A DNA stretch of 64,000 bases from Bacteroides acidifaciens (GTDB lineage Bacteria > Bacteroidota > Bacteroidia > Bacteroidales > Bacteroidaceae). Below the pieces are notes generated by a model. That model saw only the letters and a program-made list of their open reading frames with translations. It did no database searches and had not been told where the DNA came from. Location: the NCBI RefSeq assembly GCF_903181435.1, contig NZ_CAEUHO010000004.1, forward strand, positions 682,001 through 746,000, in the 5' to 3' direction. Position 1 is the stretch's first letter, and every line of letters begins with the position of its first letter. Made by a program: the position numbers and the translations under genes. Positions 4,260 through 39,790 of the stretch are shown here, piece after piece.

Positions 4260-4271
4260 GTGTTATACTAA

Positions 4272-5077: not shown

Positions 5078-5099
5078 ACGTTATTTTAAAATGTCGGCA

Positions 5100-5245: not shown

Positions 5246-5249
5246 CCAA

Positions 5250-5257: not shown

Positions 5258-5282
5258 TGCCATATTTATTAATACAAAGAGT

Positions 5283-7094: not shown

Positions 7095-7178
7095 TCCGCT
7101 GTTTCTTTTTAGTAGCGGAATTTTGCTTATCTTTGTGCCCGATATCTGAAATCTGTAAATAATAAAATTGTAAATCAA

Positions 7179-8295
7179 ATGATTACTATTGAACAACTTA
7201 AAGACGTGAAAGAGCGCACTGATGCGCTGAGGAGGTATCTTTGACGTCGACGGGAAGAAAATTCAAGTCGAAGAAGAACAATTAAGGACACAAGCTCCGG
7301 GATTCTGGGATGACCAAAAGAGAGCCGAAGCTCAAATGAAACTGGTGAAAGACCTGCAAAAGTGGATTGACGGCTATAATGAAGTCAAGACGCTGGCAGA
7401 CGAACTCGAACTGTCTTTTGATTTCTATAAGGAAGAATTGGTGACTGAGGAAGATGTGGACGCAGCTTATGCGAAAGCTTACGAAGCTGTAGAAGCACTC
7501 GAACTCAAAAATATGCTTCGCGATGAAGCCGACCAGATGGCTTGCGTATTGAAAATCAATTCCGGTGCCGGTGGTACGGAAAGTCAGGACTGGGCTTCCA
7601 TGCTGATGCGTATGTATTTGCGTTATGCCGAAACAAACGGCTATAAAGCTACCATTGCCAACCTTCAGGAAGGCGATGAGGCGGGAATTAAAACCTGTAC
7701 AATCAATATCGAAGGAGATTTTGCTTACGGTTATCTGAAGGGGGAAAATGGCGTACACCGCCTGGTTCGCGTTTCTCCATACAATGCACAAGGCAAACGT
7801 ATGACTTCCTTTGCTTCCGTATTCGTCACTCCATTGGTAGATGATAGCATTGAGGTGAATATCCTGCCTGCCAATATCTCGTGGGATACATTCCGGAGTG
7901 GTGGTGCCGGCGGACAGAATGTGAACAAGGTGGAATCCGGTGTCCGTCTGCGTTATCAGTACAAAGACCCTTATACGGGCGAGGAAGAAGAAATCCTGAT
8001 TGAAAATACCGAAACCCGTGACCAGCCGAAGAACCGTGAGAATGCAATGCGCCAATTGCGCTCTATCTTATATGATAAGGAGTTGCAGCACCGCATGGCA
8101 GAACAGGCAAAGGTGGAAGCTGGCAAGAAGAAGATTGAATGGGGCTCACAGATACGAAGCTATGTATTTGATGACCGCCGTGTGAAAGACCATCGTACCA
8201 ACTATCAGACTTCGGACGTGAACGGAGTGATGGACGGTAAGATAGATGGCTTTGTCAAAGCCTATCTGATGGAATTTTCCTCACAAGAGTCATAA
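7179..8295 (+). CDS. prfB: Peptide chain release factor 2, programmed +1 frameshift
   Basis: Translation starts at ATG 7179 and reads 21 codons to an in-frame TGA at 7242-7244; a +1 shift at CTT-TGA continues in the frame of the downstream long ORF, giving a 371-residue protein. The downstream part has the full class-I release factor layout, with the GGQ peptidyl-hydrolysis motif at about 244-246 of the joined product and the stop-codon recognition tripeptide appearing as SPY (about 199-201) where E. coli RF2 has SPF. RF2 reads UGA and UAA. The frameshift is autoregulatory: low RF2 slows termination at the UGA and favours shifting. ATG 7336 is only an internal Met and should not be taken as the start. 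Confidence 0.95.
7230..7245 (+). promoter_or_regulatory. prfB programmed +1 frameshift site
   Basis: AGGAGGTATCTTTGAC contains the internal Shine-Dalgarno-like AGGAGG, the slippery CTT codon and the UGA followed by C, the weakest termination context. This is the canonical RF2 site. Confidence 0.95.
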
Positions 8296-8379
8296 AGTGC
8301 AAAATTAGCAAGTGTTATTTTTGGAAAGTTAAAAGATTTGTTCTTACTTTGTTAGCGTTGAACTTTAAAGCTAACTAGT

Positions 8380-8514
8380 ATGGGTAAGGGTAAGAAAAAA
8401 ACAGCAATAAGCAAAAAGGAAGAAGAGCAAGCCCAAAGAGTTGTCAAAATAGTGTTTGTCTCATTGATTATTTTGGCGCTGATTATGCTTATCGCATATT
8501 CCTTTTTTGGCTGA
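8380..8514 (+). CDS. Small single-pass membrane protein, 44 aa
   Basis: ATG 8380 to TGA 8512-8514 encodes 44 residues. The first 20 are highly basic and then acidic (MGKGKKKTAISKKEEEQ), and residues 21-43 form one strong hydrophobic helix (VVKIVFVSLIILALIMLIAY). The positive N-terminus would stay in the cytoplasm. The frame is intact, starts 84 nt after prfB, and is followed by a long inverted repeat that may terminate transcription. Function unknown. The composition is too protein-like to be chance, but conservation would need a search. Confidence 0.55.
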   Translation: MGKGKKKTAISKKEEEQAQRVVKIVFVSLIILALIMLIAYSFFG

Positions 8515-8519
8515 TTATT

Positions 8520-8586
8520 CACCACAGATTACATGGATTATACAGATTTTCTCCCATAATTTGTATAATCTGTGTAATCTGTGGTG
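8520..8586. repeat. Long imperfect inverted repeat (intergenic, terminator-like)
   Basis: CACCACAGATTAC at the left pairs with GTAATCTGTGGTG at the right, and the arms continue inward with GATTATAC against GTATAATC, interrupted by two mismatches, for arms of about 25 bp. This sequence type (repeated GATTACA/CAGATT words) is seen as an intergenic repeat in Bacteroides, to my knowledge. It may act as a bidirectional terminator. Confidence 0.6.
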
Positions 8587-8670
8587 AACTCTTTTAATTT
8601 GTAACACATCCGTAATCCATGTAATAGGAATGTAACTTTTCTGTAATTTATCCGTATTCAAATTGTCATT

Positions 8671-8698
8671 TTTGTGTATTCTCGCAGTTGTACTTTTG
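8671..8698 (+). promoter_or_regulatory. Promoter of the porin gene
   Basis: TACTTTTG at 8691-8698 is a -7 box and TTTG at 8671-8674 a possible -33 box, with a spacer of 16 nt, slightly short. The ATG is 27 nt downstream. Confidence 0.5.
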
Positions 8699-8725
8699 CC
8701 ACGAATTAAGTAGCAAACAACTGAA

Positions 8726-9778
8726 ATGAGTAGAATCACAACAACAGTCGTTACGCTTTTGCTAGCGACATCGGTCTTCGGACAGGCCAAGGAAGATGCC
8801 GGGGATGGTAAAAAGCAGGAGATGAAAACAATGGAATTTAAAGATTATCTGCCTGAAATTCATGGAACCATCCGAGGAAAATATGAATACCAGACGGAAA
8901 CGCAGGAAAGCCGTTTCGAGGTACGTAATGCGCGTTTCAGCGTTTCAGGAAATGTGCATCCGTTGGTGGCTTATAAAGCGGAAATCGACCTTTCGGACGA
9001 AGGCTCTATTAAAATGCTTGATGCCTATGCGCGTGTCTTTCCGCTGCAAGACTTGAATTTTACGATTGGACAAATGCGTGTTCCTTTCACGATAGACGCA
9101 CATCGCTCTCCCCATCAACAATATTTCGCAAACCGTTCGTTCATTGCCAAACAAGTCGGGAATGTACGCGATGTTGGTTTTACTACGGCTTATATAAATA
9201 AAGGAAGCGTCCCATTTATCCTTGAAGGAGGATTATTCAACGGTTCCGGCTTGACGAATCAGAAAGAATGGCATAAGACGTTGAATTATTCGGTGAAAGC
9301 GCAACTGTTGCCTGATAAGAATTGGAATGTAACACTCAGCACCCAAATGATAAAACCGGAAGATGTACGAATCAATGTGTATGATGTTGGTATTTATTAT
9401 CAGAATAACCGTTTCCATATTGAAGCAGAATACTTATATAAGATGTATGGGCACGAAACGTTCAAGGATGTGCATGCTGTGAATAGTTTCATTAATTACG
9501 ATTTACCATTGAAAAAGGTATTCAACAAGATTTCATTTCTTGCCCGTTATGACATGATGACGGATCATAGTGACGGCAGGAAAGATGAAAGAACCAAGGC
9601 TTTGATAATCAATGATTATGCCCGCCATCGTGTGACAGGCGGAATCACACTAAGTCTTTCTAAAGCCTTTATCGCTGACCTGCGGCTGAATTTCGAAAAA
9701 TATTTCTATAAGAAGTCCGGTGTACCTAAAGAATCCGAACAGGATAAGATCGTAATTGAATTTATGACGAGATTCTGA
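8726..9778 (+). CDS. OprP/OprO-family outer membrane porin
   Basis: A 350-residue protein with a short Sec signal peptide ending at VFGQ, then an acidic/basic linker and a run of amphipathic beta strands. The segment SRFEVRNARFSVSGNVHP, the motif LDAYARVFPLQDLNFTIGQMRVPF and the terminal phenylalanine (FMTRF) are typical of the phosphate-selective porin O/P family in Bacteroidetes. It would form an outer-membrane channel, probably for anions, though selectivity cannot be read from sequence. The length is a little short for the family but the barrel ends properly at Phe. It is a single-gene transcription unit with its own promoter. Confidence 0.8.
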   Translation: MSRITTTVVTLLLATSVFGQAKEDAGDGKKQEMKTMEFKDYLPEIHGTIRGKYEYQTETQESRFEVRNARFSVSGNVHPLVAYKAEIDLSDEGSIKMLDAYARVFPLQDLNFTIGQMRVPFTIDAHRSPHQQYFANRSFIAKQVGNVRDVGFTTAYINKGSVPFILEGGLFNGSGLTNQKEWHKTLNYSVKAQLLPDKNWNVTLSTQMIKPEDVRINVYDVGIYYQNNRFHIEAEYLYKMYGHETFKDVHAVNSFINYDLPLKKVFNKISFLARYDMMTDHSDGRKDERTKALIINDYARHRVTGGITLSLSKAFIADLRLNFEKYFYKKSGVPKESEQDKIVIEFMTRF

Positions 9779-26788: not shown

Positions 26789-26813
26789 GTCAAGTGTATT
26801 TACTGTTTATTAT

Positions 26814-27317
26814 TTATTTGCTCCATATCTCTATTCTTTTCTCAATTTCTTTAGATGGTAGTCTTCCGTTTATTTGTCTGAGCAATTGGAGTTTCTCGCA
26901 AGCTTTTTGGGGTGTGAGCAACTTCTCTTCTACCAGTTTGTCAAAAATGTATAGAATTCCGCGGACATTCGTGCCTTCTTTGATTGCAGTTTTGCGAAGT
27001 TTGCCATCTCCGGTAAGTAAGATATAACCGTTATCTTGTGCATATAACCAAACGGAACAGTCCTGGATGCTAACGTTAGTTTTATCCTGCATTTTTCGTT
27101 GAAAACCTACCAGTTCAATCATTTCGCGCATATCAAACTTTTTAATAAAAAGTTTGTCATAACCAAGTATCTTACTTTTTTGCTCCATTACTTTCAGTTC
27201 ATGGATGATAAAGTCTGTCGTGTGGATATGGATAGTTAATGAAAAGAATTCGTCCAACAGGTCTGTTGTGTATAAGTCGATAAAGATATTTGTATCGCTG
27301 ACTACTACAATCTCCAT
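26814..27317 (-). CDS. PIN-domain protein (DUF4411-like), putative toxin ribonuclease
   Basis: A 167-residue protein with the four acidic residues of a PIN nuclease: Asp8 in VVSDTNIFID, Glu40 in IIHELK, Asp86 in IQDCSVW and Asp104 in LTGDGKL. PIN enzymes cut RNA with Mg2+. Its start codon shares one base with the stop of the XRE-ImmA gene (TAATG), so the two are translationally coupled. That pairing, PIN with XRE-ImmA/IrrE, is known in toxin-antitoxin-like modules. It could act as a toxin restrained by the upstream protein; the sequence alone does not prove toxicity. Confidence 0.85.
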   Translation of the reverse strand: MEIVVVSDTNIFIDLYTTDLLDEFFSLTIHIHTTDFIIHELKVMEQKSKILGYDKLFIKKFDMREMIELVGFQRKMQDKTNVSIQDCSVWLYAQDNGYILLTGDGKLRKTAIKEGTNVRGILYIFDKLVEEKLLTPQKACEKLQLLRQINGRLPSKEIEKRIEIWSK

Positions 27318-28393
27318 TATATAAGATTTAATCGGTTACGTACATCTTCAATCGAAATATTCAAGAGAGAAGCTGCTTTTGAAGTTGTTATTATATCACT
27401 GGCAATGGCCCTGAATACAAGGCTTACAAAACGTTTGGGCTTTTTCTCTCGAAATCTGGATGCAGTTACCAATTTTTTAAATCTCTCGTCTTGATTTTTC
27501 TTGATGTAGTAAGTGCGGCATCTTGCTTCTGTTATAATGTTGAGTTCTTTGGCTTTCATCATCATGGCGTCAATCGAGATGCCGTACAGAATTTGTAGGT
27601 CTGTCAGTTCATTTAATGATATATCTCTTCTGTTTTCTCCGATTATACCACTGAAGACACAGCTTGGAATCAACATTTCGTTAGCGAAAATGGTGCAAAG
27701 TCCTTCTTTTTGTCTTGGACTTAATGCCGGGTCAAAACAGGTATTAAACAAAAGATGTCCCAGTTCGTGCAAAGCAGTCATTCTGCGACGTTCGGATTGT
27801 TCGATGTTGGAGTTTAAGACAATGATAGGATATTTATCGTTAACCATGCCACTCAAACCGTCGAATCCTTCCGGTGCATCCACGTCTATAACTTTAATGA
27901 AATGTGTTTCCAACATTGCCTGGACATTATTGATGGCATCTTTGCCCAATTTCCATTCTTCGCGGAGACGGATAGCCTGCATTTTTATGTCCTGTGTATT
28001 GGAAATGATAGCATTGGAATAGGCAGTGGGTTGAAACTTATTCTCCAATCCTAAGATGTTTTCTATTTCCAGGTAACGTTCTACTTTATCACGTATCTTT
28101 TCCTTTATAGCATTGGTTTCAAATACTTTAACTTTATTCTTCTTTCTGAAACTGACCTCAAATTCGTCCAGCTCAAATAAGAAAGGACGGAAAAAATAGT
28201 CCGGATCTAAGTTTAATGCATTGGAAATAGCTATAAGGACGGAGCTGTCAGGCATCATTTTCCCGTTCTCATATTTAGAAATAGATTGCTTGCTAATCAG
28301 ATTGCCGATTTTTTCGCAAAGCATATCCATAGACCAGCCTGCCATAATTCGTGCGCTCTTTAAGCGTTTTGCAAAAATCTCTTCTATCTTCAT
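27317..28393 (-). CDS. XRE regulator with ImmA/IrrE metallopeptidase domain
   Basis: A 358-residue two-domain protein. Residues 5-65 form an XRE helix-turn-helix (RLKSARIMAGWSMDMLCEKI, SKQSISKYENGK). About 140-290 is an ImmA/IrrE domain with the zinc-binding HELGH at 209-213 (MTALHELGHLLFN). ImmA-type proteins cleave or regulate repressors in phages and mobile elements. The protein is likely both DNA-binding and the regulator of the operon it heads; the repeat array about 230 nt upstream of its start may be its operator. It is coupled by TAATG to the PIN gene. Confidence 0.9.
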   Translation of the reverse strand: MKIEEIFAKRLKSARIMAGWSMDMLCEKIGNLISKQSISKYENGKMMPDSSVLIAISNALNLDPDYFFRPFLFELDEFEVSFRKKNKVKVFETNAIKEKIRDKVERYLEIENILGLENKFQPTAYSNAIISNTQDIKMQAIRLREEWKLGKDAINNVQAMLETHFIKVIDVDAPEGFDGLSGMVNDKYPIIVLNSNIEQSERRRMTALHELGHLLFNTCFDPALSPRQKEGLCTIFANEMLIPSCVFSGIIGENRRDISLNELTDLQILYGISIDAMMMKAKELNIITEARCRTYYIKKNQDERFKKLVTASRFREKKPKRFVSLVFRAIASDIITTSKAASLLNISIEDVRNRLNLI

Positions 28394-28623
28394 ATTGATA
28401 ACCTTTTATTGGTTTACAAAAATATAAATAATTATTGAAGTGTCAACCAAAATGCGCATCTTTAATCTCTGATGCATATAAGATTAATAATATTTAATGT
28501 ATTGTATGTGCGGTCATTAGCTTTAATGGGAACTGGGGCATTGGGGCGGATTCGAGTTCTTTGGTACTTATTCTTTATTGTTTTCTATAAGGGTGTTAAG
28601 TACAGGCCGTAGTGGAACAAAAT

Positions 28624-28775
28624 GTTTTCAAGGCTTGAAACACTTCGTTTCATGGTGAGAAACACTTGGTTTCAAGCCTTGGAAACTTTAGTTTCAAGGG
28701 CTGGAAACTAAAGTGTCAAGTGCTTGAAACTAAAGTTTCCTACCGGGGAAACACTGGTTTCACGGCAGGAAATGG
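28624..28775. repeat. Tandem array of about six 21-23-bp GAAAC-N4/5-GTTTC dyads
   Basis: Units begin with GAAAC at 28637 and recur at intervals of 22, 23, 22, 22, 22 and 21 nt; most contain GAAAC followed by GTTTC after 4-5 nt (for example GAAACACTTGGTTTCAAG, GAAACTTTAGTTTCAAGG). Each unit is an imperfect dyad, and the spacing is close to two helical turns. The array lies between the XRE-ImmA start codon and the right inverted repeat. It looks like a multi-site operator or an iteron origin. Confidence 0.75.
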
Positions 28776-28845
28776 AATGTATCCCCTGTTGGTACTTTTG
28801 TTTGCACGTGGGCTTCTGTTTGTATGTCGGTTTGGATTTTGGCGG

Positions 28846-28954
28846 ACGGTGATAGGTGATAGATGAGGTGATAGGTTATTGACAACCTATCACCGTTCTG
28901 TAAGTGCGATGAATAGGGCGTTTCAGAATGGTGGTGATAGGTTGAAAGAGGATT
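28846..28954 (-). repeat. Right copy of about 109-bp inverted repeat
   Basis: Reverse-complement counterpart of 24552-24660, about 90% identical by eye, including GGTGATAGGTGATAG and the palindromic-looking GATAGGTT/AACCTATC part. It lies 250 nt before the TonB receptor gene. Confidence 0.85.
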
Positions 28955-29230
28955 TTCACTTTTGTGTATAGTGGAGAGGGGAATCAAAAAAACATATATC
29001 TTTGCAATACGCTTTCTGCTCATCAGCGTGGTGAAATCGCAGGGCTTCCCGAAGAGGAGAAGCTTTGTAGGGCATTTGTGATGCTTTAGTAAGAAATTTT
29101 ATCTATTCGTTTTACTTTCTTAACTCCGAATGTTCCGTAATTGACACGAAACCAACTATTTTTATCCCCACATTTGCAGCATTTCAGAATGTCCTGCGTC
29201 TAATAAATAAAAAACTAAATCATTCTAGTC
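28955..29230 (+). other. Intergenic region with a promoter-like box before the TonB receptor
   Basis: TATCTTTG at 28997-29004 is a good -7 box. It is followed by about 85 nt of locally GC-richer sequence containing short possible stems (GCTTC/GAAGC) and no convincing ORF, then AT-rich sequence up to the receptor start. It may be the receptor's promoter with a leader of about 220 nt, or the leader of a lost gene. Confidence 0.35.
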
Positions 29231-31795
29231 ATGAAACACAGACTGTTGCTACTATTACTATTCATGTTTGCTACATGTGCGACGGGGTGGGCGCAAAAAG
29301 ATGTAGCTCCTTCTTTTACCATCAAAGGCGTTCTTCTGGATTCGTTAACCCAAGAGGGAGAACCGTATGCCACCATCAGGATTACCAAGAAAGGCGTTCC
29401 GGACAAAGCTGTAAAAATGGCGGTGACCGGGGCAAACGGTAAGTTCCAGGAGAAATTGAATGTACCGGCAGGCGATTATGTAATCAGCATTTCTTCGATA
29501 GGTAAAGCGCCTGTTGTGAAAGACTTCACTTTGAAATCTTCTACGAAAATAACCGACCTTGGGACGTTGTATTCTTCGGAAGCCAATAATGAGTTGAAGG
29601 GAGTGGAAGTTGTCGCCCAGAAGCCTTTGGTGAAGGTAGATGTGGACAAGATAGAATATAACATTGAAGACGACCCCGACTCCAAGTCGAACAGTATCCT
29701 GGAGATGCTGCGCAAAGTTCCTTTGGTGACGGTGGACGGGGAAGATAATGTGCAGGTGAACGGGAGCAGCAGTTTCAAGATACATGTGAACGGGAAGCCG
29801 AACAACATGATGAGCAATAATCCGAAAGAAGTGCTGAAGAGTATGCCGGCAAATACCATTAAATATATTGAGGTGATTACTTCGCCGGGTGCGAAGTACG
29901 ATGCGGAAGGCGTAGGCGGTATTCTGAATATCGTCACCGTGGGCAGCGGATTTGAGGGATATACGGCTACATTCCGGGGAAATGTCACTAACAACGGAGC
30001 CGGAGCCGGTACTTATGCGATGGTGAAACAGGGGAAGATGACTATTTCCGTCAATTATAACTACAATTATAATAATCATCCGCGCAGCTATTCGGACAGT
30101 TACCGTGAGAATTACGAGCCGGGGGCGAGGGACGAGAAGTTTCTCGAATCTCAAAGCAGTTCCAAATCGAAAGGAAATTTCCAGTATGGCAACCTGGAAG
30201 CGAGTTATGAGATTGATACGTTGAGACTGCTGACGGCGGCTTTCGGAATGTATGGCAGCAGTAATAAGAGCGACAACAACGGAAATACGGTAATGTATAG
30301 GACGAACCATGAGGACGTGGCTTATCGTTACCGGACGGATAGCCGTAATAAAAACTCGTGGTATTCCATAAATGGAAATATAGACTATCAGCGTACTTCG
30401 CGGAAGAATAAGCAGCGGATGCTGACCTTATCTTATAAGATAAATACGCAACCTCAAACTGATAATTCCAAGAATGTTTATCTGGACATATTCCCCGACG
30501 AGCAGAAAGAGGAACTGGCGGAACGGCTGCGGTTGGAAAATTACCATTCGGATGGAAAGACAAATACGATGGAGCAGACTTTCCAGGTGGATTATACGAC
30601 TCCGATAGGGAAATTGCATACCATTGAGACGGGAGCGAAATACATTTTCCGTCGCAATAGCAGTGATAACGCGCTTTATGAGGCGGCAGGCGGAAGCGAT
30701 AATTATGCGTATAATGAAGACCGCAGCAGTGAGTACCGCCATCTCAACCATATCCTGTCGGCTTATGTGGGATATACCCTAAAGTATAAGGACTTTTCGT
30801 TCAAGCCGGGAGTACGTTATGAGCAGACCATACAACGGGTGAAATATATCGTAGGACCGGGTGAGGACTTCCATACGAATTACAGTGATTTGGTTCCGTC
30901 CGTCTCTTTGGGAATGAAAATCGGCAAGACGCAGAATCTGCGTGCCGGTTATAATATGCGCATCTGGCGTCCGGGAATCTGGAGCCTGAATCCTTACTTT
31001 AACAATCAAGACCCGATGTCTATCAGTCAGGGAAATCCGGACTTGAAGAGTGAGAAAAGCCATGCTTTTGATATTGCGTACAGTAATTTCAGTGCCAAGT
31101 TCAATATAAACGTTTCGTTGCGCCATTCATTCGGGAATAACGGGATAGAGAGGGTGAGCCGCTTGATAACCAATGAGAACGGAGAAATCTTTGATGATAA
31201 TCCGGAGCACATGGCGCCGGACGGGGCTATGTACAGCACTTATGACAATATCGGCAAGAATCGGGATACCGGTTTGTCCCTTTATCTGAACTGGAACGCT
31301 TCTTCTAAAACACGTATTTACGTGAACGGACGCGGAAGTTACAGGGACTTGAAAAGTGAGGCGCAAGGGTTGCACAATTATGGATGGAACGCTTCTTGCC
31401 ACGGGGGTATCCAGCATACGTTGCCTTTGAAAATCCGTTTGAGCCTGAATGGGGGCGGGGGTACTCCGTATATCAGTTTGCAGGGAAAAGGTTCCGGCTA
31501 TCAGTATTACGGCATTGGGTTGAACCGTTCATTCCTGAAGGATGACCGTCTCACGCTGAACCTATATTGCAACAATATTTTTGAGAAGTACAGGACGTAT
31601 AACAGTCATACGAAAGGTGACAATTTTATATCAAAGAGTAGCGGGAAATATCCGAGCCGTTATGTTGGCTTCAGTATCAGCTACCGGATTGGAGAACTGA
31701 AAGCCAGCGTGAAGAAAGCTGCCCGGAGCATCAATAATGATGATGTGAAAGGTGGAGAAGGCGGTGGAAACGCCGGTGGCGGAGGTGGTCAGTAA
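29231..31795 (+). CDS. TonB-dependent receptor of the OMP_b-brl_3 type
   Basis: An 854-residue outer membrane protein. After a signal peptide (TGWAQKD) comes a carboxypeptidase-regulatory-like domain (about 28-115), a TonB plug (about 125-225, LVKVDVDKIEYNIEDDPDSKSNSILEML shortened here; key words NSILEMLRKVPLVTVDG and ITSPGAKYDAEGVGG) and a large beta-barrel with SYRIGELKAS near the end. The pattern EMLRKVPLV and GAKYDAEG is typical of the outer membrane beta-barrel family linked to carboxypeptidase-like domains. Beyond the barrel there is a Gly-rich tail (GGEGGGNAGGGGGQ), unusual because most receptors end with the last aromatic strand. Substrate unknown; it has no SusD partner. Confidence 0.85.
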   Translation: MKHRLLLLLLFMFATCATGWAQKDVAPSFTIKGVLLDSLTQEGEPYATIRITKKGVPDKAVKMAVTGANGKFQEKLNVPAGDYVISISSIGKAPVVKDFTLKSSTKITDLGTLYSSEANNELKGVEVVAQKPLVKVDVDKIEYNIEDDPDSKSNSILEMLRKVPLVTVDGEDNVQVNGSSSFKIHVNGKPNNMMSNNPKEVLKSMPANTIKYIEVITSPGAKYDAEGVGGILNIVTVGSGFEGYTATFRGNVTNNGAGAGTYAMVKQGKMTISVNYNYNYNNHPRSYSDSYRENYEPGARDEKFLESQSSSKSKGNFQYGNLEASYEIDTLRLLTAAFGMYGSSNKSDNNGNTVMYRTNHEDVAYRYRTDSRNKNSWYSINGNIDYQRTSRKNKQRMLTLSYKINTQPQTDNSKNVYLDIFPDEQKEELAERLRLENYHSDGKTNTMEQTFQVDYTTPIGKLHTIETGAKYIFRRNSSDNALYEAAGGSDNYAYNEDRSSEYRHLNHILSAYVGYTLKYKDFSFKPGVRYEQTIQRVKYIVGPGEDFHTNYSDLVPSVSLGMKIGKTQNLRAGYNMRIWRPGIWSLNPYFNNQDPMSISQGNPDLKSEKSHAFDIAYSNFSAKFNINVSLRHSFGNNGIERVSRLITNENGEIFDDNPEHMAPDGAMYSTYDNIGKNRDTGLSLYLNWNASSKTRIYVNGRGSYRDLKSEAQGLHNYGWNASCHGGIQHTLPLKIRLSLNGGGGTPYISLQGKGSGYQYYGIGLNRSFLKDDRLTLNLYCNNIFEKYRTYNSHTKGDNFISKSSGKYPSRYVGFSISYRIGELKASVKKAARSINNDDVKGGEGGGNAGGGGGQ

Positions 31796-31807
31796 GACCA
31801 CCACCGC

Positions 31808-33454
31808 TCAACTTAGCCAGAAGGATGTAACGTGTCTTACGTCATATTTATCCAGTATGGCTAAGAATCTTTTATCTTCGAGACATTCTTTGTAGATATA
31901 GAACATTTCGTCATACTTCACCCAGCGCAAGTCGTAGTTGTATTTCAACGCAAGTTCTATATTTCGGAAGAAGTCAAGTTTCTCATTCATACGATATTTG
32001 ATTTCTGCAAGAGTGATATAGGCCATAGCTGATTCGGAATCAATCTCTAAAGTTTCATAAATGGCTTCAAGCGCACTGGCGTATTTTTTATAGAAATTCC
32101 ACATTTTAGCCTCCTCATTGCGGTATTTCACATTGTCAGGATGTGCTTTTATTAGCTTTGTGATTGCTTTTATATCGTGTTCTTCATTATGAAACATCAT
32201 GTGGTCTATCTTGACCTTGAGAAATTCAGTAAACTCATTATCTTTATCATAAATTTTATTCAAGAGGTTTTCGCTTCTCTGATAATTTCCTAATAAAAGG
32301 TTTAGATGAATCTCTTTGAGTTGTATTGGGAGCAAGTCGGGGCCAAGGGTGGCAGTAGCTTTTTGTGCATATTCTAATGCCTTCTCAAATTCAAAACGGT
32401 CAAAATAATAGTTACTAATGAATGAATATCCATATGAAAATTGCGGGTATGAGTTAACCAGTAACTCTGCTTGTTCCATGAAGTGGCTGTCGTTTCCTCT
32501 ATAGTAGCGCAATGCTTTGTCTACTTCTAATTGAAGCTGCTTGTATCCGTCAAAAGTGACAAGGTCTTCTTTAGAGAAATAATTCTTTACCAAAGAATCA
32601 TACAAGGCCATATATTCTTTGACGGAAGAAGTTTTGGAGACTTCGTATATATAAGAAGTGTTGCAAAGCTCGTTCTCTTCCAGGCAGCGGTCTGAATGGA
32701 TTACATTCGCGCTTTCGAGGGTGGTGCCGTTCTTTGCGAGACATTCTTTGATGATATTTGTCTTTTGCTCTACAATGATGTTATGTTTTACTTTTTCATC
32801 GGGACTGTCCGGCAGAGGAATACGGGTCAGGACAAAATGATAGGTCCTCTTGACTCCCAGCAGGTTGTTTTCCGGTGCGGAGAGCGAGTTCAGGACTTTA
32901 CAGCAGCCTTTGATGTTTTCTTCGTTATTGGCTGCCAAAAAGACAACGTCGTCGGCAAGTAAGGACATCGTGATAGCGGACATTTCCGTGATTCCTGTCC
33001 TGGAGTCTATCAGTAAGAAATCGGGAGCCAGTTCCTCTTCTATCTGTTTCTTCAGGCTCAGAAAGAAATCAATGCCATAACTGTTTTCTGCATAGAATAA
33101 GTTCCACCAATTGATGCGTGCGAGTTTTTTCCAGTAATCACTTGAGTCAACATCCCCTGCCGCACATAAATGGATGGTATTTATTGCGTTGTTTAAATGA
33201 ATGTCAACCATATAATCTGATATATGGCGGGGTTGTACATTCTCCACAGCATATGCATAAATATAATCCACCAATCCTTTGTAGATAGGCTGTTGAAGTT
33301 CCTTGGCATATTTGCTTTGCAATCCCGGAGCTTCCAAATCAAAGTCGAGGATACACACTTTCTTTCCAAATTCAGCCAAGCGATTGGCTACGTTGACTAA
33401 CGCCAATGTCCGTCCGACTCCTCCTTTGTAGGAATAAAAAGTAAATGTTTTCAT
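31808..33454 (-). CDS. ParA/MinD-like ATPase (KGGVGR variant) with C-terminal TPRs
   Basis: A 548-residue protein. The N-terminus is a deviant Walker A of the ParA/MinD/ArsA class, but with Arg in place of the usual Lys: YKGGVGRTLALVNVA at 9-23. ILDFDLEAPGLQSKY follows as the second signature and FLLIDSRTGITEMS as Walker B. About 310-548 is a helical TPR-like region. ATPases with the KGGVGR variant occur in signalling or conflict systems as I recall, and are not ordinary chromosome partitioners. It is the last gene of a tight three-gene operon; 5 nt separate it from the XRE gene upstream. Confidence 0.83.
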   Translation of the reverse strand: MKTFTFYSYKGGVGRTLALVNVANRLAEFGKKVCILDFDLEAPGLQSKYAKELQQPIYKGLVDYIYAYAVENVQPRHISDYMVDIHLNNAINTIHLCAAGDVDSSDYWKKLARINWWNLFYAENSYGIDFFLSLKKQIEEELAPDFLLIDSRTGITEMSAITMSLLADDVVFLAANNEENIKGCCKVLNSLSAPENNLLGVKRTYHFVLTRIPLPDSPDEKVKHNIIVEQKTNIIKECLAKNGTTLESANVIHSDRCLEENELCNTSYIYEVSKTSSVKEYMALYDSLVKNYFSKEDLVTFDGYKQLQLEVDKALRYYRGNDSHFMEQAELLVNSYPQFSYGYSFISNYYFDRFEFEKALEYAQKATATLGPDLLPIQLKEIHLNLLLGNYQRSENLLNKIYDKDNEFTEFLKVKIDHMMFHNEEHDIKAITKLIKAHPDNVKYRNEEAKMWNFYKKYASALEAIYETLEIDSESAMAYITLAEIKYRMNEKLDFFRNIELALKYNYDLRWVKYDEMFYIYKECLEDKRFLAILDKYDVRHVTSFWLS

Positions 33455-33459
33455 AACTC

Positions 33460-33954
33460 TTATATGATTAGCATGAGTGAAGCTCTTTCTTTGGCAATAC
33501 GGGTGGCTCTGGCTGATTCTTCCGTCTGTTTGAATGGAGCCGGCATCTGGCTGGAGTCATTAAACTGAAAGTTCAATTCGCATTTTTTTGCGAGTACCCG
33601 TATGATTTGTACGACTCTCTCAAATTTAACTTTACCGTATTCTTGTTGTTCATAACGTTGGATTTGTTGTTCCGGCACTCCTATTTTGTCTGCCAGTTCC
33701 TTTTGGGTGTATCCGGAAGCTATACGCAAGGCTATGATAGATTTAGGAAGGTTTTCGTTCGTAAAAGACAGGTGTTGCCGGTTTCTTAACTTCTCGAATT
33801 CTTCGATTTCCGAACTCAAGTCTTTCAACCGGCAGCAGTATGCTGCTTTTTGCATACGGTCGGTCAGTTCTTCTCCTTTTATCTGATACAAGGCATCCAG
33901 CAACTCTTCCATTTCCTGTTTGGCGCGTGTCAGTTGGCTTTCGTTCTTAATCAT
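33460..33954 (-). CDS. XRE-family helix-turn-helix protein with N-terminal coiled coil
   Basis: A 164-residue protein. The first 65 residues are charged and helical (SQLTRAKQEMEELLDALYQ), likely a coiled coil for dimerisation. About 70-125 is an XRE/Cro HTH (ALRIASGYTQKELADKIGV, QQIQRYEQQEYGKVKF). The short tail ends LMLII. It lies 3 nt after the nucleotidyltransferase-like gene and 5 nt before the ATPase gene, so it probably controls this operon, and may act as an antitoxin-like partner. Confidence 0.85.
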   Translation of the reverse strand: MIKNESQLTRAKQEMEELLDALYQIKGEELTDRMQKAAYCCRLKDLSSEIEEFEKLRNRQHLSFTNENLPKSIIALRIASGYTQKELADKIGVPEQQIQRYEQQEYGKVKFERVVQIIRVLAKKCELNFQFNDSSQMPAPFKQTEESARATRIAKERASLMLII

Positions 33955-33957
33955 ATC

Positions 33958-34398
33958 TTAGTTCAGATTTATTTTTATTATTCCCTTTTTCTTCCTCTTT
34001 GCTCCTTTTCTTCCTTGAAAGAAATCCAGATAGGAGATATTCAAGCCTGCATAAAGGCTGTAAAAGAATAGCTCTCCTTTGAATTTTTGTTTTTGCGTTT
34101 CCCGCAGTTTATAATCGTCAGTGAGGAGCAGGCAAGGTTCTTGGCTTTTTAGTGTCTTAAGAGATTGTGTGCTTCCTTTGAAACAGGCATCCCAGTCGTC
34201 GGGTTCCAATTTGTCGGTGACGAAGCTACCGTCGATATAGATAGCTTCGCAACCACAAATTTTTAGTATATTTATAACTTGGAGTAAGCCTTCCAGCAGT
34301 TCTTTACGTTTGGGGCTGAATCCGAAAGTTGTTTCAAATTCTTCCCAACTGAGCGTGTGAATTCCTTCGGGCAAATACCCTTCTTTATTAAATTCCAT
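33958..34398 (-). CDS. DUF6932-like protein with minimal-nucleotidyltransferase signature
   Basis: A 146-residue protein. It begins MEFNKEGYLPEGIHTLSW, as DUF6932 members do to my knowledge, and carries IDGSFVTDKLEPDDWDACF, where GS (57-58) and DxD (68, 70) match the active site of MNT-type nucleotidyltransferases. The rest is short, and the third acidic ligand is not obvious. MNT-like proteins act in HEPN/MNT toxin-antitoxin pairs and AMPylate or polyadenylate targets. Here the partner is an XRE protein and an ATPase instead of a HEPN protein. It is the first gene of the operon and has its own -7 box. Confidence 0.75.
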   Translation of the reverse strand: MEFNKEGYLPEGIHTLSWEEFETTFGFSPKRKELLEGLLQVINILKICGCEAIYIDGSFVTDKLEPDDWDACFKGSTQSLKTLKSQEPCLLLTDDYKLRETQKQKFKGELFFYSLYAGLNISYLDFFQGRKGAKRKKKGIIKINLN

Positions 34399-34421
34399 AA
34401 TAACACATCATTTCTGTTGTG

Positions 34422-34429
34422 CAAATATA
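34422..34429 (-). promoter_or_regulatory. -7 box of the NT-XRE-KGGVGR operon
   Basis: Plus-strand CAAATATA reads TATATTTG on the minus strand, 24 nt before the start of the nucleotidyltransferase-like gene. Confidence 0.55.
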
Positions 34430-34480
34430 GAAAAAATACCTGGATATTGAAGGATGGATAGTTTTATTTCCGTCTTACAT

Positions 34481-35890
34481 TTATTTTTGTTTCACATCCT
34501 GTTTGTTGGTATTAAAACCCAGCTTCGTCAGTCCCGCCTGTACGTCGGGGTGGCTCATGAAGAGGTTCCATAACAAGCCTGTGCGGTAGTTCTCAATCAT
34601 GACGGCGATAGGGCCCTGGTCGATGGCGAGGTAGCGTTGCGGATACCAGTTGTCCGTTTCGCTGAAAGCGTCGTAGAATCCGAAGGGGCCGAAAACTTTG
34701 TCGCCCATATTATAGAGGTGGCGCATCACTTGCATGGAGTATTCCGGCGTGTAGGCGATGGATGAGAGGGCGGCGGTAGGAGAGATGACACCCTTGTCGT
34801 CCTGCTCGTTGGGTGAGTGGGCGGCATATCCGTCTACGGAGTAACTGGCAGTCAGTCCCCAGCAATCGGGGCCGAACCCTTTGTAATGTTTGGGGTTGCG
34901 GATGCAATAGGCACGGTTTACTAACGTCAGGTTGCGCATTTCGTAGAAATAACTGGGGCAATATTCATCTTTCAGTCCCACAGGGTCGAGTCCGAGGAAA
35001 GAATATTGTGCCCAGAAAAGCGGTCCGGCTTCCGTCCCCTGGTAGCGGAGATGAAGTTCGATTCCTTCTACCTTATGCGGGGAGATGATGGCACCGTTCT
35101 GCGCCCATCCGTCATGGTAGACGGCGGCGGGTACTCCGTGCGTTGGCGAAGCGGCGGCAAGGATATACATAATCATGCATTCGTTGTAACCGTGTACGGG
35201 AAAATTCATTTCCCAGCCGTAGGTAGGGCTCCAGTGCCAGTAAAGGACGTTTTGTCCGCCTTTCCGGTACCAGTCCCAGTCAACATCGCGCCAGATTTGG
35301 TCGATGCGCTGGGCGAGCGCTTTTTCTTTCTCGTTGCCGTTTACGTAATATTGGTGCACGGCGAGAAGTCCCTGGATAAGGAAAGCTGTTTCCACCAGGT
35401 CACCGCCGTTGTCTTTCTGTCCGAAAGGTTTCACCTTTCCCGTGTCGCCATACCACCAGTGAGGGTACGCTCCGTGAAAGCGGTCGGCTTTCTCAAGGAA
35501 GGATACGATACGCTCCATGCGTGCCAGTCCCTCTTCACGGGTGACATAGCCGCGGTCTATTCCGGCAAGGATAGCCATGATGCCGAAGCCGCTGCCGCCG
35601 GAAGTGACGACGTTGGCGTCGTCCTGCGGATATACGCCGTCTACATGATAGCGTTCGGGGGCAAGACCGCTGTTCGGTTCCGCACCTTCCCAAAAGTAGA
35701 GGAAGGTCCGTCGCTGGACGGTATCCATCAGGGCATCATCCGACAGTGAGTCGGTGACGGCGGAAAGGTTGTCGCTTTTGCTTTTCCCCTTACAGTTCTG
35801 GAAGGTCAGGGCTACAGCGGACAGGAACAGCAGCATGAGAGGGAGTGCGCTCATTTCTGCGAGTCTTTTATATTTATTGTTCATAATCAA
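34481..35890 (-). CDS. GH144-family glucanase lipoprotein (endo-beta-1,2-glucanase candidate)
   Basis: A 469-residue exported protein with a lipobox-like QNCKG (Cys at about 33). The mature part is the glucoamylase-like (alpha/alpha)6 fold of GH144: TFLYFWEGAEPNSGLAPERY, VTSGGSGFGIMAILAGIDRG, YWHWSPTYGWEMNFPVHGYNE and TAALSSIAYTPEYSM are characteristic. GH144 enzymes attack beta-1,2-glucan endolytically, releasing sophorose units. It is the last gene of a SusC-SusD-GH3-GH144 run, the order described for the beta-1,2-glucan locus of B. thetaiotaomicron. Start could be ATG 35890 or ATG 35884. It probably acts at the cell surface. Confidence 0.85.
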   Translation of the reverse strand: MIMNNKYKRLAEMSALPLMLLFLSAVALTFQNCKGKSKSDNLSAVTDSLSDDALMDTVQRRTFLYFWEGAEPNSGLAPERYHVDGVYPQDDANVVTSGGSGFGIMAILAGIDRGYVTREEGLARMERIVSFLEKADRFHGAYPHWWYGDTGKVKPFGQKDNGGDLVETAFLIQGLLAVHQYYVNGNEKEKALAQRIDQIWRDVDWDWYRKGGQNVLYWHWSPTYGWEMNFPVHGYNECMIMYILAAASPTHGVPAAVYHDGWAQNGAIISPHKVEGIELHLRYQGTEAGPLFWAQYSFLGLDPVGLKDEYCPSYFYEMRNLTLVNRAYCIRNPKHYKGFGPDCWGLTASYSVDGYAAHSPNEQDDKGVISPTAALSSIAYTPEYSMQVMRHLYNMGDKVFGPFGFYDAFSETDNWYPQRYLAIDQGPIAVMIENYRTGLLWNLFMSHPDVQAGLTKLGFNTNKQDVKQK

Positions 35891-35935
35891 GGTGATAATT
35901 TATTAGATTAGGCACGGTAATCCGTGCCTAAGAGT

Positions 35936-38245
35936 TTAGTTCAACGTAAATTTCGCCGTTTTCACATCCCGGCTGTTCGTCCCAATCATCACTTCAAAGT
36001 CACCCGGTTCGGCCACCAGTTGAAGGTCATAGTTATAATATCTCAGCATTTCCGGAGCAATCTTGAAGCGGACAATCTTCATTTCTCCCGGTTCAAGGAA
36101 TATCTTCTGGAAACCTTTCAGCTCTTTCACGGGGCGGGTGCTGCTGCCTACTACGTCACGGATATAGAGTTGCACGACTTCCGAGCCGGGCCATGTGCCG
36201 GTATTGGTCACTTCCACTGCTGCGGTCAGTGAACCGTTCATGTCCATGCTGGAGTGGCTGAGGTCAATGTCACTGTAGGAGAAAGTGGTATAAGAAAGCC
36301 CGTAGCCGAACGGATAAAGCGGGTCATTGTCCACATCCAGGTAGTTGCTGCGGAACTTCTCGAACCATTTGCCTTCTTTCAACGGGCGTCCGGTATTCTT
36401 ATGCGCATAGTAAAGAGGTATCTGACCGACGTTCTTCGGGAAAGTCATTGTCAGTTTGCCACCCGGATTGACATAGCCGAAGAGGGCGTCGCCGATGGCA
36501 TAAGCTGCTTCACTGCCGCCGAACCATACATTCAGGATGGCGGGCACGTGTTCCTGTTCCCAGTTCAGTGTAAGCGGGCGGCCGGTGAACAGTACAAGCA
36601 CTACCGGTTTCCCTGTCTTTACTAATTCTTTCAGCAGGTTTTGCTGCACGTCAGGGATATTCAAGTCCGTACGGCTGCTGCTTTCACCGCTCATCTCAGA
36701 GGATTCTCCAAGGGCTGCGATGATAATGTCCGACCGGCGGGCTACGTTGAGCGCTTCGTCCAGCAATTGCTGGTCGGTGCGATTGTCACGGCTCAGTGAA
36801 CGGCCGAACATTGTGGCACGTTCTTCGTAGGCGGCATCACTAATCAGGTTGCTGCCTTTGGCGTACATGATATTCGCTTTTCCGGCAGTCATCTCTTTCA
36901 GTCCCTCTACTAATGAAGGACAGCGGTCGAGCACAGCAGCTACGCTCCAAGTACCCGGCATATTGCTGCGGCTGTTTGCCAGCGGGCCGATAACGGCGAT
37001 ATTTCCTTTGGGATTGAAAGGCAGTAGCGGATTTCCGTTCGGGTTCCCGTCGGGGCTGTCGTTTTTCAAGAGAACGAAACTTTCGGCGGCTATTCTGCGG
37101 GCTGCGTCACGGTGCGCTTTCGTAAATATGTCGCGTGTCGGACGTTTCGGGTCGCAATATTTATAAGGATTGTCAAACAACCCGAGCTTGTATTTCGCTT
37201 CCAGGATGCGGCGGCAGGCGGTATTCAGCGTTTCCATAGAAACCTTGCCTTCCTGGACGGATTTCTTCAGCGTGCCTACAAAGCCTTCGCTGACCATATC
37301 CATGTCCACTCCGGCATTGATGGCACGGGCGGATACTGTCTGAAGGTCGCCGATGCCATGGTCTATCATTTCGGAGATTCCCGTATAGTCGGTTACAACG
37401 AAGCCGTTGAATCCCCATTGTCCGCGCAGGATGTCCGTCATCAGCCATTTGTTGGCGGTGGCAGGTATTCCGTCCACTTCGTTGAACGATGCCATCACGC
37501 TGCCTACACCGGCTTCGACGGCTGCTTCATAAGGTAGCATATAGTCGTTGAACATCCGTTGGCGGCTCATATCCACGGTGTTGTAGTCACGTCCCGCTTC
37601 GCTTGCCCCGTATAGGGCAAAGTGCTTCACGCACGCCATGATTTCGTCGTTGCGTTGCATGTTCTTTCCCTGATAGCCGCGTACCATTGCTTCGGCAATC
37701 ATGGCGCCGAGGAACGGGTCTTCACCGTTCCCCTCGGACACACGTCCCCAGCGGGGGTCGCGCGAGATGTCCACCATCGGGCTGAATGTCCATGAGATTC
37801 CGTCGGCACTGGCTTCTACGGCTGCGATGCGGGCAGACTCTTCGATGGCTGCCATATCCCAGGTGCACGACAGGCCGAGCGGGATGGGGAACATCGTCTC
37901 ATATCCGTGGATGACGTCCATGCCAAACAGTAACGGAATACCCAGGCGGGATTGTTCGACCGCCTGTTTCTGTACTTCGCGTATCTTCTCCACTCCTTTC
38001 AGGTTGAACAGTCCGCCTACTTCGCCTTTCTTGATTTTGGCGGCAATATCGCTGCTCTTGGCTTGTCCGGTGGTAATCTCTCCGGTGACGGGAAGGTTTA
38101 ACTGCCCTATCTTTTCTTCCAATGTCATTCTTCTCATCAGGGCATCGATGAAGCGGTTCATGTCCTGTGGCGACTTTTGTGCCGCCACGTTCAGGAATCC
38201 TGCCAAAAGTAACAGAATGACGGAACTTAGTTTCTTATTTATCAT
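35936..38245 (-). CDS. GH3 beta-glucosidase
   Basis: A 769-residue glycoside hydrolase of family 3. The signal peptide ends near NVAAQKS. The catalytic Asp286 lies in GFVVTDYTG; the substrate-pocket motifs DISRDPRWGRVSEGNGEDP (about 159-177) and MACVKHFALYG (about 203-213) are intact, and a C-terminal FnIII-like domain ends the protein (LQLVAEPGDFEVMIGTN). In the context of a GH144 gene it should cleave sophoro-oligosaccharides (beta-1,2 glucose) to glucose in the periplasm. The preceding genes encode SusC and SusD; the SusD stop is 15 nt before this start. Confidence 0.92.
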   Translation of the reverse strand: MINKKLSSVILLLLAGFLNVAAQKSPQDMNRFIDALMRRMTLEEKIGQLNLPVTGEITTGQAKSSDIAAKIKKGEVGGLFNLKGVEKIREVQKQAVEQSRLGIPLLFGMDVIHGYETMFPIPLGLSCTWDMAAIEESARIAAVEASADGISWTFSPMVDISRDPRWGRVSEGNGEDPFLGAMIAEAMVRGYQGKNMQRNDEIMACVKHFALYGASEAGRDYNTVDMSRQRMFNDYMLPYEAAVEAGVGSVMASFNEVDGIPATANKWLMTDILRGQWGFNGFVVTDYTGISEMIDHGIGDLQTVSARAINAGVDMDMVSEGFVGTLKKSVQEGKVSMETLNTACRRILEAKYKLGLFDNPYKYCDPKRPTRDIFTKAHRDAARRIAAESFVLLKNDSPDGNPNGNPLLPFNPKGNIAVIGPLANSRSNMPGTWSVAAVLDRCPSLVEGLKEMTAGKANIMYAKGSNLISDAAYEERATMFGRSLSRDNRTDQQLLDEALNVARRSDIIIAALGESSEMSGESSSRTDLNIPDVQQNLLKELVKTGKPVVLVLFTGRPLTLNWEQEHVPAILNVWFGGSEAAYAIGDALFGYVNPGGKLTMTFPKNVGQIPLYYAHKNTGRPLKEGKWFEKFRSNYLDVDNDPLYPFGYGLSYTTFSYSDIDLSHSSMDMNGSLTAAVEVTNTGTWPGSEVVQLYIRDVVGSSTRPVKELKGFQKIFLEPGEMKIVRFKIAPEMLRYYNYDLQLVAEPGDFEVMIGTNSRDVKTAKFTLN

Positions 38246-38260
38246 ATTATTATACTTGTT

Positions 38261-39790
38261 TTATTGATAATCCGGATTTTGTACCAGCACTCCTTTGGAC
38301 TTGTCTATCTCGGTCTGAGGCAATGGAAGCAAGGCGTTCTTGTCCTGATAATTCTTGCCGGCTGCCTGCAATACTTGTTTGGCAATGCCCCAGCGGACCA
38401 GGTCGTAGAAACGGTCGAACTCAAGCCCCAGTTCCACGCGGCGTTCATGGCGGATGGCTTCACGCAGTTCGCCTTGGTCGGTAGTGGTTACTTTGGGCAA
38501 TATGTTGCTATTCGTACCTCTAGCACGTTCACGTACCTGTTCGAGGTAGTCTACCGCTTCGCCGGGGATGCCTTTTTCATTGGCGGATTCGGCTCCCATC
38601 AGCAATACGTCCGCATAGCGGATGAGGCGGATATTTACCCAATAGCCTTTGTTGGTGTATTCCTTACGCAGGGCTGGGTCGGTGTAGGCTTTTTTATTGA
38701 AATAGGCTCCCATAGCCGGAGAAACCGGAGATTCGCCGTAAGGCTCGTTGGTATTCTCGGGGGTAATCGGCTCGTCGTCCGAGTGACGGAAGTAGAGCAG
38801 GGTGGCGTTTTTACGCGGGTCGCCCTGTTCGTAGGCTTGTGCCATATATTCTGTCGCCATGTGCCATCCCCATCCCAAGTCCCATTGACCTGCTCCGCGC
38901 ACACCTTGCACTTCGCAGAACTGGCTGCCGATAACATCGCTTTGGGGGAGAGCGGCGGTGGCGGTACATTGCAGTTCGAATACAGAACCGCCGTTGTTTT
39001 CGCCTTCGTCCGTAAATATCTCGTTGTACGGGGTTTTCAGGTTATAAAGCCCTTTTTTAATGACGTCGGTAGAGGCTGTGTACATATTGTTCCAGTCGTT
39101 GCGCATCATATAGGTACGTGCGTGCAGCGAACGTGCGGCTCCCCAGGTGAGGCGTCCGAGGTATTCGGTGCTCCATGTTTCCGGTAGTGACTCCTCGGCG
39201 GTTTTCAGGTCGGTGTCAATCTGCTCGTAGATTTTCTCGACGGTTGTTTTCGGAATATTGGCTTCCGAAGCGTCATTGATTTTGTAGGTCACGAGGGGGA
39301 CTTCGCCGAAAGCTCTTACCAGATTGAAGTAGCAGTAGGCACGGAAGAAAGAGGCTTCGCCTTTGTTGATGATATCTTCGGCTTCGGTTTGTCCGGCTGT
39401 CTCTTTATCTGCGATGGATTCGAGAATGTCATTGCACTGGTAGATGATGGCATAATTCTGTCCCCAGTAGGCACCCAGCAAACCGTTGTTGGCGGTATAT
39501 AGGAAGTCGTCGTACATTTCCGCTACGTCGGAACCGTCGCTGGCTATACTTCCCTTTTCCGAGTCTTCGGAACGGAAGCAGTGGATGGCAAATGCGGGAG
39601 GACCGGCGGTGATGTTGTAATTACGCATCATCGTGTAGACATTGTAAATCTTACCGTTGACGAGCGCATTGGGGTTGTCGTCTTCGGTGAACTGTCCTTG
39701 CGGACTGCGGTCGAGAAAGTCGCTGCAACTGCCCAGAAAGAGCGTGGCGGCGGCAATAAGGGCTGAAAATATATATTTATCCAGTTTCAT
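38261..39790 (-). CDS. SusD/RagB-family surface glycan-binding lipoprotein
   Basis: A 509-residue lipoprotein (lipobox LGSC, Cys22; CSDFLDRSPQG is the standard SusD opening). The RagB/SusD features continue with ALVNGKIYNVYTMM, EASFFRAYCYFNLVRAFGEVPLV and, near the end, the helix LREAIRHERRVELGLEFDRFYDLVRWG and a C-terminal NPDYQ. It forms the lid of the SusC transporter and binds the glycan at the surface. It lies 12 nt after the susC-like gene. The long N-terminal TPR-like helices are complete, so the pair appears functional. Confidence 0.95.
   Translation of the reverse strand: MKLDKYIFSALIAAATLFLGSCSDFLDRSPQGQFTEDDNPNALVNGKIYNVYTMMRNYNITAGPPAFAIHCFRSEDSEKGSIASDGSDVAEMYDDFLYTANNGLLGAYWGQNYAIIYQCNDILESIADKETAGQTEAEDIINKGEASFFRAYCYFNLVRAFGEVPLVTYKINDASEANIPKTTVEKIYEQIDTDLKTAEESLPETWSTEYLGRLTWGAARSLHARTYMMRNDWNNMYTASTDVIKKGLYNLKTPYNEIFTDEGENNGGSVFELQCTATAALPQSDVIGSQFCEVQGVRGAGQWDLGWGWHMATEYMAQAYEQGDPRKNATLLYFRHSDDEPITPENTNEPYGESPVSPAMGAYFNKKAYTDPALRKEYTNKGYWVNIRLIRYADVLLMGAESANEKGIPGEAVDYLEQVRERARGTNSNILPKVTTTDQGELREAIRHERRVELGLEFDRFYDLVRWGIAKQVLQAAGKNYQDKNALLPLPQTEIDKSKGVLVQNPDYQ

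Follow-up and report, generated by a model that had tools for sequence, protein, structure and literature searches.

Why should a P-loop ATPase stand behind a gene pair that resembles a toxin-antitoxin module? The question is raised by a three-gene operon of Bacteroides acidifaciens, located in a stretch of 64,000 nucleotides (contig NZ_CAEUHO010000004.1 of assembly GCF_903181435.1, positions 682,001 to 746,000 of the forward strand; hereafter the window), which encodes a DUF6932 protein, a helix-turn-helix (HTH) protein of the XRE type, and an ATPase with the variant motif KGGVGR and a C-terminal TPR region (Table 1). We refer to the three genes together as the trio, and cite loci and genomes by our own L and G numbers. 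We give roughly even chances to the operon being a toxin-antitoxin-like module with a third component driven by nucleoside triphosphate (NTP), analogous to toxin-antitoxin-chaperone systems, and a role in anti-phage defence appears plausible.

Gene content and conserved motifs of the operon

All three genes lie on the minus strand and, according to the list of open reading frames (ORFs), are separated by 3 nt (DUF6932/XRE) and 5 nt (XRE/ATPase). A preliminary description of the locus, made from the letters alone, had recognized in this arrangement a nucleotidyltransferase-XRE-KGGVGR ATPase operon, and both the ORFs and the family profiles bear it out. The first product belongs to PF22014 (Pfam profile search, E 3e-35), a family to which Pfam assigns no function. 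The GS...DxD pattern already noticed in it (G57-S58 and D68-x-D70) is invariant or nearly so in an alignment of 82 DUF6932 sequences, the GS being kept in all 82 and each aspartate of DxD in 81 (one gap); from what is known of such families, we take it to be a nucleotidyltransferase active-site motif. A structure model of the window protein (predicted local distance difference test, pLDDT, 93) matches in the PDB mostly nucleotidyltransferases of the Pol-beta family, and the closest solved folds include antitoxins of the minimal nucleotidyltransferase (MNT) type, all with weak scores; the DUF6932 profile has no sequence match at E <= 10 among solved structures. The invariant motif and the weak fold matches support DUF6932 as a Pol-beta-type, minimal-nucleotidyltransferase-like protein. 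A literature search found no paper mentioning DUF6932.

The second product is an HTH_3 protein (Pfam, E 6e-10), and its structure model begins with a pair of long helices (residues 5-24 and 30-58) ahead of the HTH. It is weakly MqsA-like (TIGR03830, 7.9e-8, below the family cut-off), and a Pfam search found in it no peptidase or other effector domain, Peptidase_M78 being unmatched. The start of the helical hairpin, MIKNE, also heads an otherwise different DUF6932 partner without XRE-profile match (L074, 6423-6872), which suggests that the hairpin may be the part of XRE that contacts DUF6932. At the other end, 61-69 residues follow the recognition helix in 10/10 trio XREs, as opposed to 21-41 in 27 non-cyanobacterial XREs of two-gene loci. 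We dropped the long tail as a feature of trios only, because 32 cyanobacterial two-gene XREs carry 39-74 residues there. Among 20 aligned sequences, the tail consists of a variable linker with modest conservation near the end (RxSL-like), and it is a candidate docking site for the ATPase.

The third product is a member of NF047398, 'KGGVGR-motif variant AAA ATPase' (score 177 bits; curated cut-off 90), in which arginine replaces the usual lysine of the P-loop. As KGGVGR, DFDLEAPG and an LLID-RTG stretch are invariant in 20 aligned ATPases, the nucleotide site is likely active despite this replacement. The TPR region of the window protein itself falls below Pfam cut-offs; solved TPR proteins are found with the family profile (5e-29), and the orthologues in L079 and L187 have TPRs above the Pfam cut-off (L079 TPR_1 at 2e-18), in agreement with the TPR-bearing Walker A variant ATPase of the preliminary description. 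We could not find any paper on KGGVGR ATPases by that name, the letters occurring just within longer words of one review on mushroom lectins, and the available portions of PMC8195603 and PMC11980606 do not mention the family.

Table 1. Features of the operon and its insertion site (positions in the window)
Feature	Position	Strand	Details or basis
Accessory insert between two convergent genes, absent at orthologous sites of other genomes of the genus	31811..34480		Site comparison
Gene 1, DUF6932, Pol-beta/MNT-like nucleotidyltransferase, putative toxin or modifying enzyme	33958..34398	-	146 aa; PF22014
Gene 2, XRE HTH protein, putative antitoxin and autorepressor	33460..33954	-	164 aa; HTH_3
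Gene 3, KGGVGR-variant ParA/MinD-like ATPase with C-terminal TPR region, putative NTP-dependent controller	31808..33454	-	548 aa; NF047398
GS...DxD active-site motif GSFVTDKLEPDDWD, codons of residues 57-70 of DUF6932	34189..34230	-	82-sequence alignment
XRE C-terminal stretch, residues 123-164, ending KERASLMLII; candidate ATPase docking tail	33463..33588	-	Tail-length comparison
KGGVGR codons, variant Walker A, residues 10-15 of the ATPase	33410..33427	-	Invariant in 20 aligned sequences
18-bp palindrome CACAACAGAAATGATGTG, 13/14 matches to CACAACAnnnnTGTTGTG; putative operator	34404..34421	-	Ends 5 bp before gene 1 start codon
TATATTTG, Bacteroidota-type -7 promoter box abutting the palindrome, upstream of gene 1	34422..34429	-	Motif reading against the -7 consensus

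Conservation of the pair and of the trio

A scan of genome contigs identified 220 DUF6932 relatives; the locus counts below rest on the best 80 of the 220, with Bacteroidota and cyanobacterial loci sorted by record title. An XRE gene, recognized with our own profile, lies directly downstream of DUF6932 on the same strand in 78 of the 80 loci, and 62 of these 78 pairs overlap by 4-17 nt. The two exceptions still have an overlapping downstream gene, coding for a HExxH-bearing partner in L043 and for a partner without HTH match in L074. Sorted by partner, the loci comprise 59 with a short XRE, 11 with a long XRE bearing HExxH, 8 trios, and 2 without profile match. Five of six long XRE proteins (four from the 80-locus set, two from a phylum sample) match Peptidase_M78, one of the five below cut-off. 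Two small and tightly linked genes kept together across lineages recall type II toxin-antitoxin systems. The earlier suggestion that MNT and XRE make a toxin-antitoxin pair holds as far as a conserved gene pair of that kind is concerned, with toxicity, neutralisation, NTP hydrolysis, sensing and phage defence as predictions.

The ATPase is the third gene in all eight Bacteroidota loci (L001-L004, L014, L073, L077, L079) and in 0/72 of the others; L187, from outside the 80-locus set, is also a trio with the ATPase in third place. Weak ATPase-profile matches in L018, L021 and L075 lie elsewhere in the locus and are not third genes. L018, from a Hormoscilla genome, contains three tandem DUF6932-XRE pairs within ~5 kb (3869-9030). 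The preliminary description had proposed neighbourhood conservation as a check, and had named families not co-occurring elsewhere as grounds to give up its reading; we found that the three families do co-occur in Bacteroidota, with correlated divergence. For 10 trios whose genes are physically linked, distance matrices correlate with r 0.83 (DUF6932-XRE), 0.77 (DUF6932-ATPase) and 0.89 (XRE-ATPase), none of 2000 permutations being as high for any pair, and when L001, a near-twin of the window, is left out, with r 0.69, 0.65 and 0.85 (2, 3 and 0 of 2000 permutations as high), all of these being values that ignore shared species history. The trio ATPases form one clade of the ATPase tree (100/99), inside which falls the long-branched L199, an ATPase of another kind whose placement is unsure.

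Concerning its frequency, the trio is rare: it is present in 1/251 genomes of the family of G001 (G001 itself) and in 2/296 genomes of the order of a Psychroserpens genome (that centre genome and L187), our family, order and class searches having scored up to 3-5 candidates per genome, with misses possible. Of the 395 genomes of a phylum sample, 24 have a DUF6932 match above cut-off, and the 30 DUF6932 loci retrieved (1.5-kb flanks) include one with an ATPase (L090, the centre genome) and six with an XRE recognized by our profile. Divergent DUF6932 genes adjoin a protein of ~303-317 aa of no clear family in L107 (528-2028), L095 (530-1998) and L093 (515-2001). We dropped the trio as the general DUF6932 unit, as the non-Bacteroidota loci among the 80 are without the third gene and many phylum-sample loci are divergent and have other partners. 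DUF6932 swaps partners, and the trio is therefore one lineage's version; judging from gene neighbourhoods, the usual unit is the two-gene pair, to which one lineage has added the ATPase.

Promoter and putative operator

We counted as a putative operator any sequence with at least 11/14 matches to CACAACAnnnnTGTTGTG. Such a palindrome is present near the DUF6932 start in 8/10 Bacteroidota trio upstreams (0.08 expected) and, in a test that was not fully blind since the arms came from Bacteroidota upstreams and the spacer was fixed after a scan including other loci, in 35/72 non-Bacteroidota upstreams (0.86 expected), while the same scan of control regions after the XRE stop gave 1/70. The 72 divide into cyanobacteria (3/34 with palindrome) and the remainder (32/38), and in 29 of the 35 sites the end of the palindrome lies no more than 5 bp before or after the start codon. 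In L014 the best match lies far upstream of DUF6932. An operator with a 5-nt spacer was dropped, having one site with 13/14 only; it led to the 18-bp form. The site ahead of the operon (34404-34421) is the only one in the window with fewer than two mismatches, and with up to three mismatches there are 6 as against 2.9 expected. XRE would probably autorepress the operon by way of this palindrome.

The promoter consensus of Bacteroidota at -7 is TAnnTTTG, and we presume TATATTTG to be such a box. TAnnTTTG is found in 9/10 Bacteroidota upstreams, L002 being the one without it, and a generic sigma-70 scan returned promoter-like sites at the level of shuffled sequence (9, mean 7.0). The single promoter first proposed for all three genes is thus plausible by its box and draws nothing from the scan; promoters inside the genes are possible.

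KGGVGR ATPases in other settings

We found a KGGVGR ATPase directly after an MqsA-family antitoxin in six loci (L203, L204, L216, L217, L219, L220). The antitoxin was called by PF15731 above cut-off in L203, L204 and L220, by TIGR03830 above cut-off in L216, by PF15731 below cut-off together with its annotation in L217, and by annotation only in L219. The viral contigs provided 13 ATPase loci, of which L203-L205 had their neighbours read, and the rest of the MqsA set comes from plasmid and genome loci. A small protein of no known family is encoded upstream in L204, L205, L216, L217 and L219 (aligned) and in L220 (by eye); L205 lacks an MqsA ORF, and in L203 small ORFs of at least 40 aa are missing upstream. 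In the ATPase tree, seven such ATPases (six MqsA-type kin plus L218, with L220 left out) cluster at 88/90, on a branch that is not starred, and this cluster lies apart from the trio clade. The ATPase is third in two unrelated antitoxin-bearing operon families. The MqsA-type ATPases are likewise rare, with 2/385 class-sample genomes passing E 1e-40 and L220 full length.

The Polymorphobacter plasmid locus L218 (1591-4342) has a small pair annotated as hypothetical ahead of its KGGVGR ATPase. A HicA-like reading of the pair, made by eye only, was abandoned: NCBIfam has no match for either protein and Pfam none for the one of 221 aa. A related MqsA-family operon without the ATPase, L226, has a third gene annotated as SecB, but this gene has no Pfam match. 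We could not detect any likeness between the upstream proteins of L225-L227 and that of L216, so that the parallel is one of layout and not of demonstrated descent. In a Fibrella plasmid (L228, 1-2936), an MqsA-family antitoxin gene adjoins the cyclase-phospholipase pair of a cyclic-oligonucleotide-based anti-phage signalling system (CBASS).

Other KGGVGR ATPases of the phylum sample have neighbours of a different type. A TIR-like gene lies directly upstream in L193 (4457-6701, above the Pfam cut-off) and L194 (3053-5763, below it), possibly forming a TIR-based conflict pair with the ATPase. The L189 ATPase is part of the PADLOC candidate system PDC-M28 (A 2e-49, B 3e-183, C 8e-189). The P-loop part of the window ATPase (residues 2-183) also matches PDC-M28B (1e-34), but its C-terminal part differs, and PDC-M28 has A and C genes of its own; with no PDC-M28A or PDC-M28C match at E <= 1 among the three window proteins, we rejected membership. 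No paper on PDC-M28 was found.

These neighbours speak for an alternative in which a conflict system would use the ATPase as its effector or as the switch that transduces the signal, with DUF6932-XRE merely regulating or licensing it. MinD/ParA-like domains do occur in predicted conflict systems, but according to the part of that study available they are predicted to be inactive there (PMC7159879). Moreover, most of the 80 loci have DUF6932-XRE but no ATPase, so that the pair has an independent function, and we consider an effector role of the ATPase distinctly unlikely.

Accessory status and insertion site

The operon is accessory in the genus. The glycoamylase gene at its site is present in 28/60 genus-sample genomes, giving 30 loci, in 22 of which the state of the site is undecidable; the site is empty in L150, L151, L154, L156 and L158 (in the last, the neighbour is just 53% like the window gene), is occupied by the operon in L152 (from the genome that also contains L001), and has different genes in it in L153 and L155. 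L180 and L181 lack the operon, and there the glycoamylase gene directly adjoins the flanking gene of outer-membrane type. Four genes, including those for a CHASE2 protein and a Sel1-caspase protein, occupy the site of L153 (L183, 6567-11473), and in a third genome a 619-aa gene of another kind lies there (L185, 6253-8112), indicating that the site takes varied inserts. No integrase was seen by eye among the ORFs of 28000-38500, and no direct repeat flanks the operon within 31780-34520. The guanine-plus-cytosine (GC) content of the operon is ~0.40-0.42, compared with 0.45-0.47 and 0.50-0.56 on its two sides, but composition alone proves nothing, because values drop further, to 0.36-0.39, in 26800-29199.

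About 3.4 kb from the ATPase gene, the window also encodes a 358-aa protein combining XRE and Peptidase_M78 (ImmA/IrrE-like; 27317-28393, minus strand), a kind of regulator known from toxin-antitoxin operons. Just past its gene lies an operator-like site with two mismatches (27253-27270, plus strand), which may be due to chance.

Comparison with known systems

Among the literature searches (RosmerTA, PD-lambda-2, MinD-like/TIR, MqsA/ParA/tripartite, nucleotidyltransferase-toxin/XRE), none showed anything on this operon among the papers listed, and its function has to be approached through related systems, two of which call for caution. The first is the PADLOC candidate PDC-M63. The window DUF6932 matches PDC-M63A at 1.8e-14, whereas the XRE has no PDC-M63B match at E <= 1 and the ATPase gene has no counterpart in this two-gene system (PDC-M63AB), which resides in a prophage of E. 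coli NILS69. Its deletion there, with 10 phages tested, gave no indication that it protects the cell (PMC12409345).

This negative test is consistent with an operon that plays no part against phages and serves instead for addiction, in the manner of plasmid modules, or for the regulation of some cell process. DUF6932 matches are found in 28 plasmid records and in none of 50,697 phage records (E 1e-5), on which account we dropped phage carriage of the operon; three viral contigs have DUF6932, with no ATPase-profile match in the stretches examined. On the other hand, the window copy is accessory, and at its site another genome holds a caspase-domain gene. We regard a function of this kind, with no role against phages, as improbable.

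The second is PD-lambda-2, composed of HigB-like A, XRE-peptidase B and P4-antitoxin-like C, in which, from the text available, B is toxic alone, A rescues, and C is needed for defence (PMC9519451). Its XRE gene, too, is downstream of a small partner gene, but the HigB-like first gene, the XRE-peptidase fusion and the P4-antitoxin-like third gene have no counterpart in the trio; as the window XRE is without Peptidase_M78 and gene 1 is DUF6932, membership was rejected. PD-lambda-2 nevertheless warns that the roles might be reversed, with XRE (or XRE plus ATPase) being harmful and DUF6932 neutralising it, perhaps by nucleotidylation. MntA, for instance, nucleotidylates HEPN toxins, and MNT antitoxins are among the solved folds nearest to DUF6932. 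Two DUF6932-linked XRE-ImmA proteins, L051 and L080, match PD-Lambda-2_B (1e-85 and 3e-83) from residue 127 or 88 on, while those of L006 and L098 have no such match. XRE proteins with operators are usually antitoxins, however, the window XRE lacks any effector domain recognized by Pfam, and PD-lambda-2A is HigB-like rather than a DUF6932 protein. We consider reversed polarity unlikely and propose DUF6932 as the toxic partner.

Parallels to a module with DUF6932 as toxin and XRE as antitoxin are CmdTAC and MqsRAC, described in the accessible text as chaperone-dependent toxin-antitoxin defence systems against phage (PMC9519451). They resemble the trio in having three genes, the third being a non-toxin component, and an antitoxin (the putative one in the trio) with a C-terminal extension, though cyanobacterial two-gene XREs have long tails as well, to which the weak MqsA similarity of the window XRE may be added; they differ in that the third gene of the window encodes a TPR ATPase and not a SecB-like chaperone, and the first a nucleotidyltransferase-like protein. 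MntA-HepT and MenAT/AbiE are two-gene modules which, like the trio, include a small nucleotidyltransferase of Pol-beta fold, as far as weak fold matches indicate, but no HEPN match (Pfam) is found among the genes of the operon.

Proposed mechanism and significance

From these comparisons we infer a course of events in which biochemistry, polarity and the link to infection would be as follows. Free DUF6932 would most likely transfer nucleotides to an essential target (tRNA or protein), like other small nucleotidyltransferase toxins. XRE would bind DUF6932, perhaps via its N-terminal hairpin, and would occupy the palindrome at the promoter and thereby keep the operon repressed. In its NTP-bound state, the KGGVGR ATPase would hold or stabilise the antitoxin, its TPR arm perhaps resting on the C-terminal tail of XRE, in a role parallel to that of the SecB-like chaperone in toxin-antitoxin-chaperone systems. 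Infection would then titrate, consume or remodel the ATPase, upon which the complex would open, repression would be lifted, and the nucleotidyltransferase would arrest the cell.

What is new is the third slot, in which a KGGVGR ATPase with TPRs follows two unrelated pairs that each include an antitoxin. This leads us to a broader and more tentative idea, which we would not yet call probable: KGGVGR/TPR ATPases may serve toxin-antitoxin modules generally as an exchangeable third component driven by NTP, which the nucleotidyltransferase-XRE pair in Bacteroidota and the MqsA-antitoxin pair in Pseudomonadota would have recruited independently of each other, with hydrolysis doing the job of SecB in holding a tailed antitoxin until infection. 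If true, DUF6932 would take its place among the nucleotidyltransferases of toxin-antitoxin systems, and TPR-armed P-loop ATPases would join SecB chaperones as a second solution for making a toxin-antitoxin pair conditional on infection.

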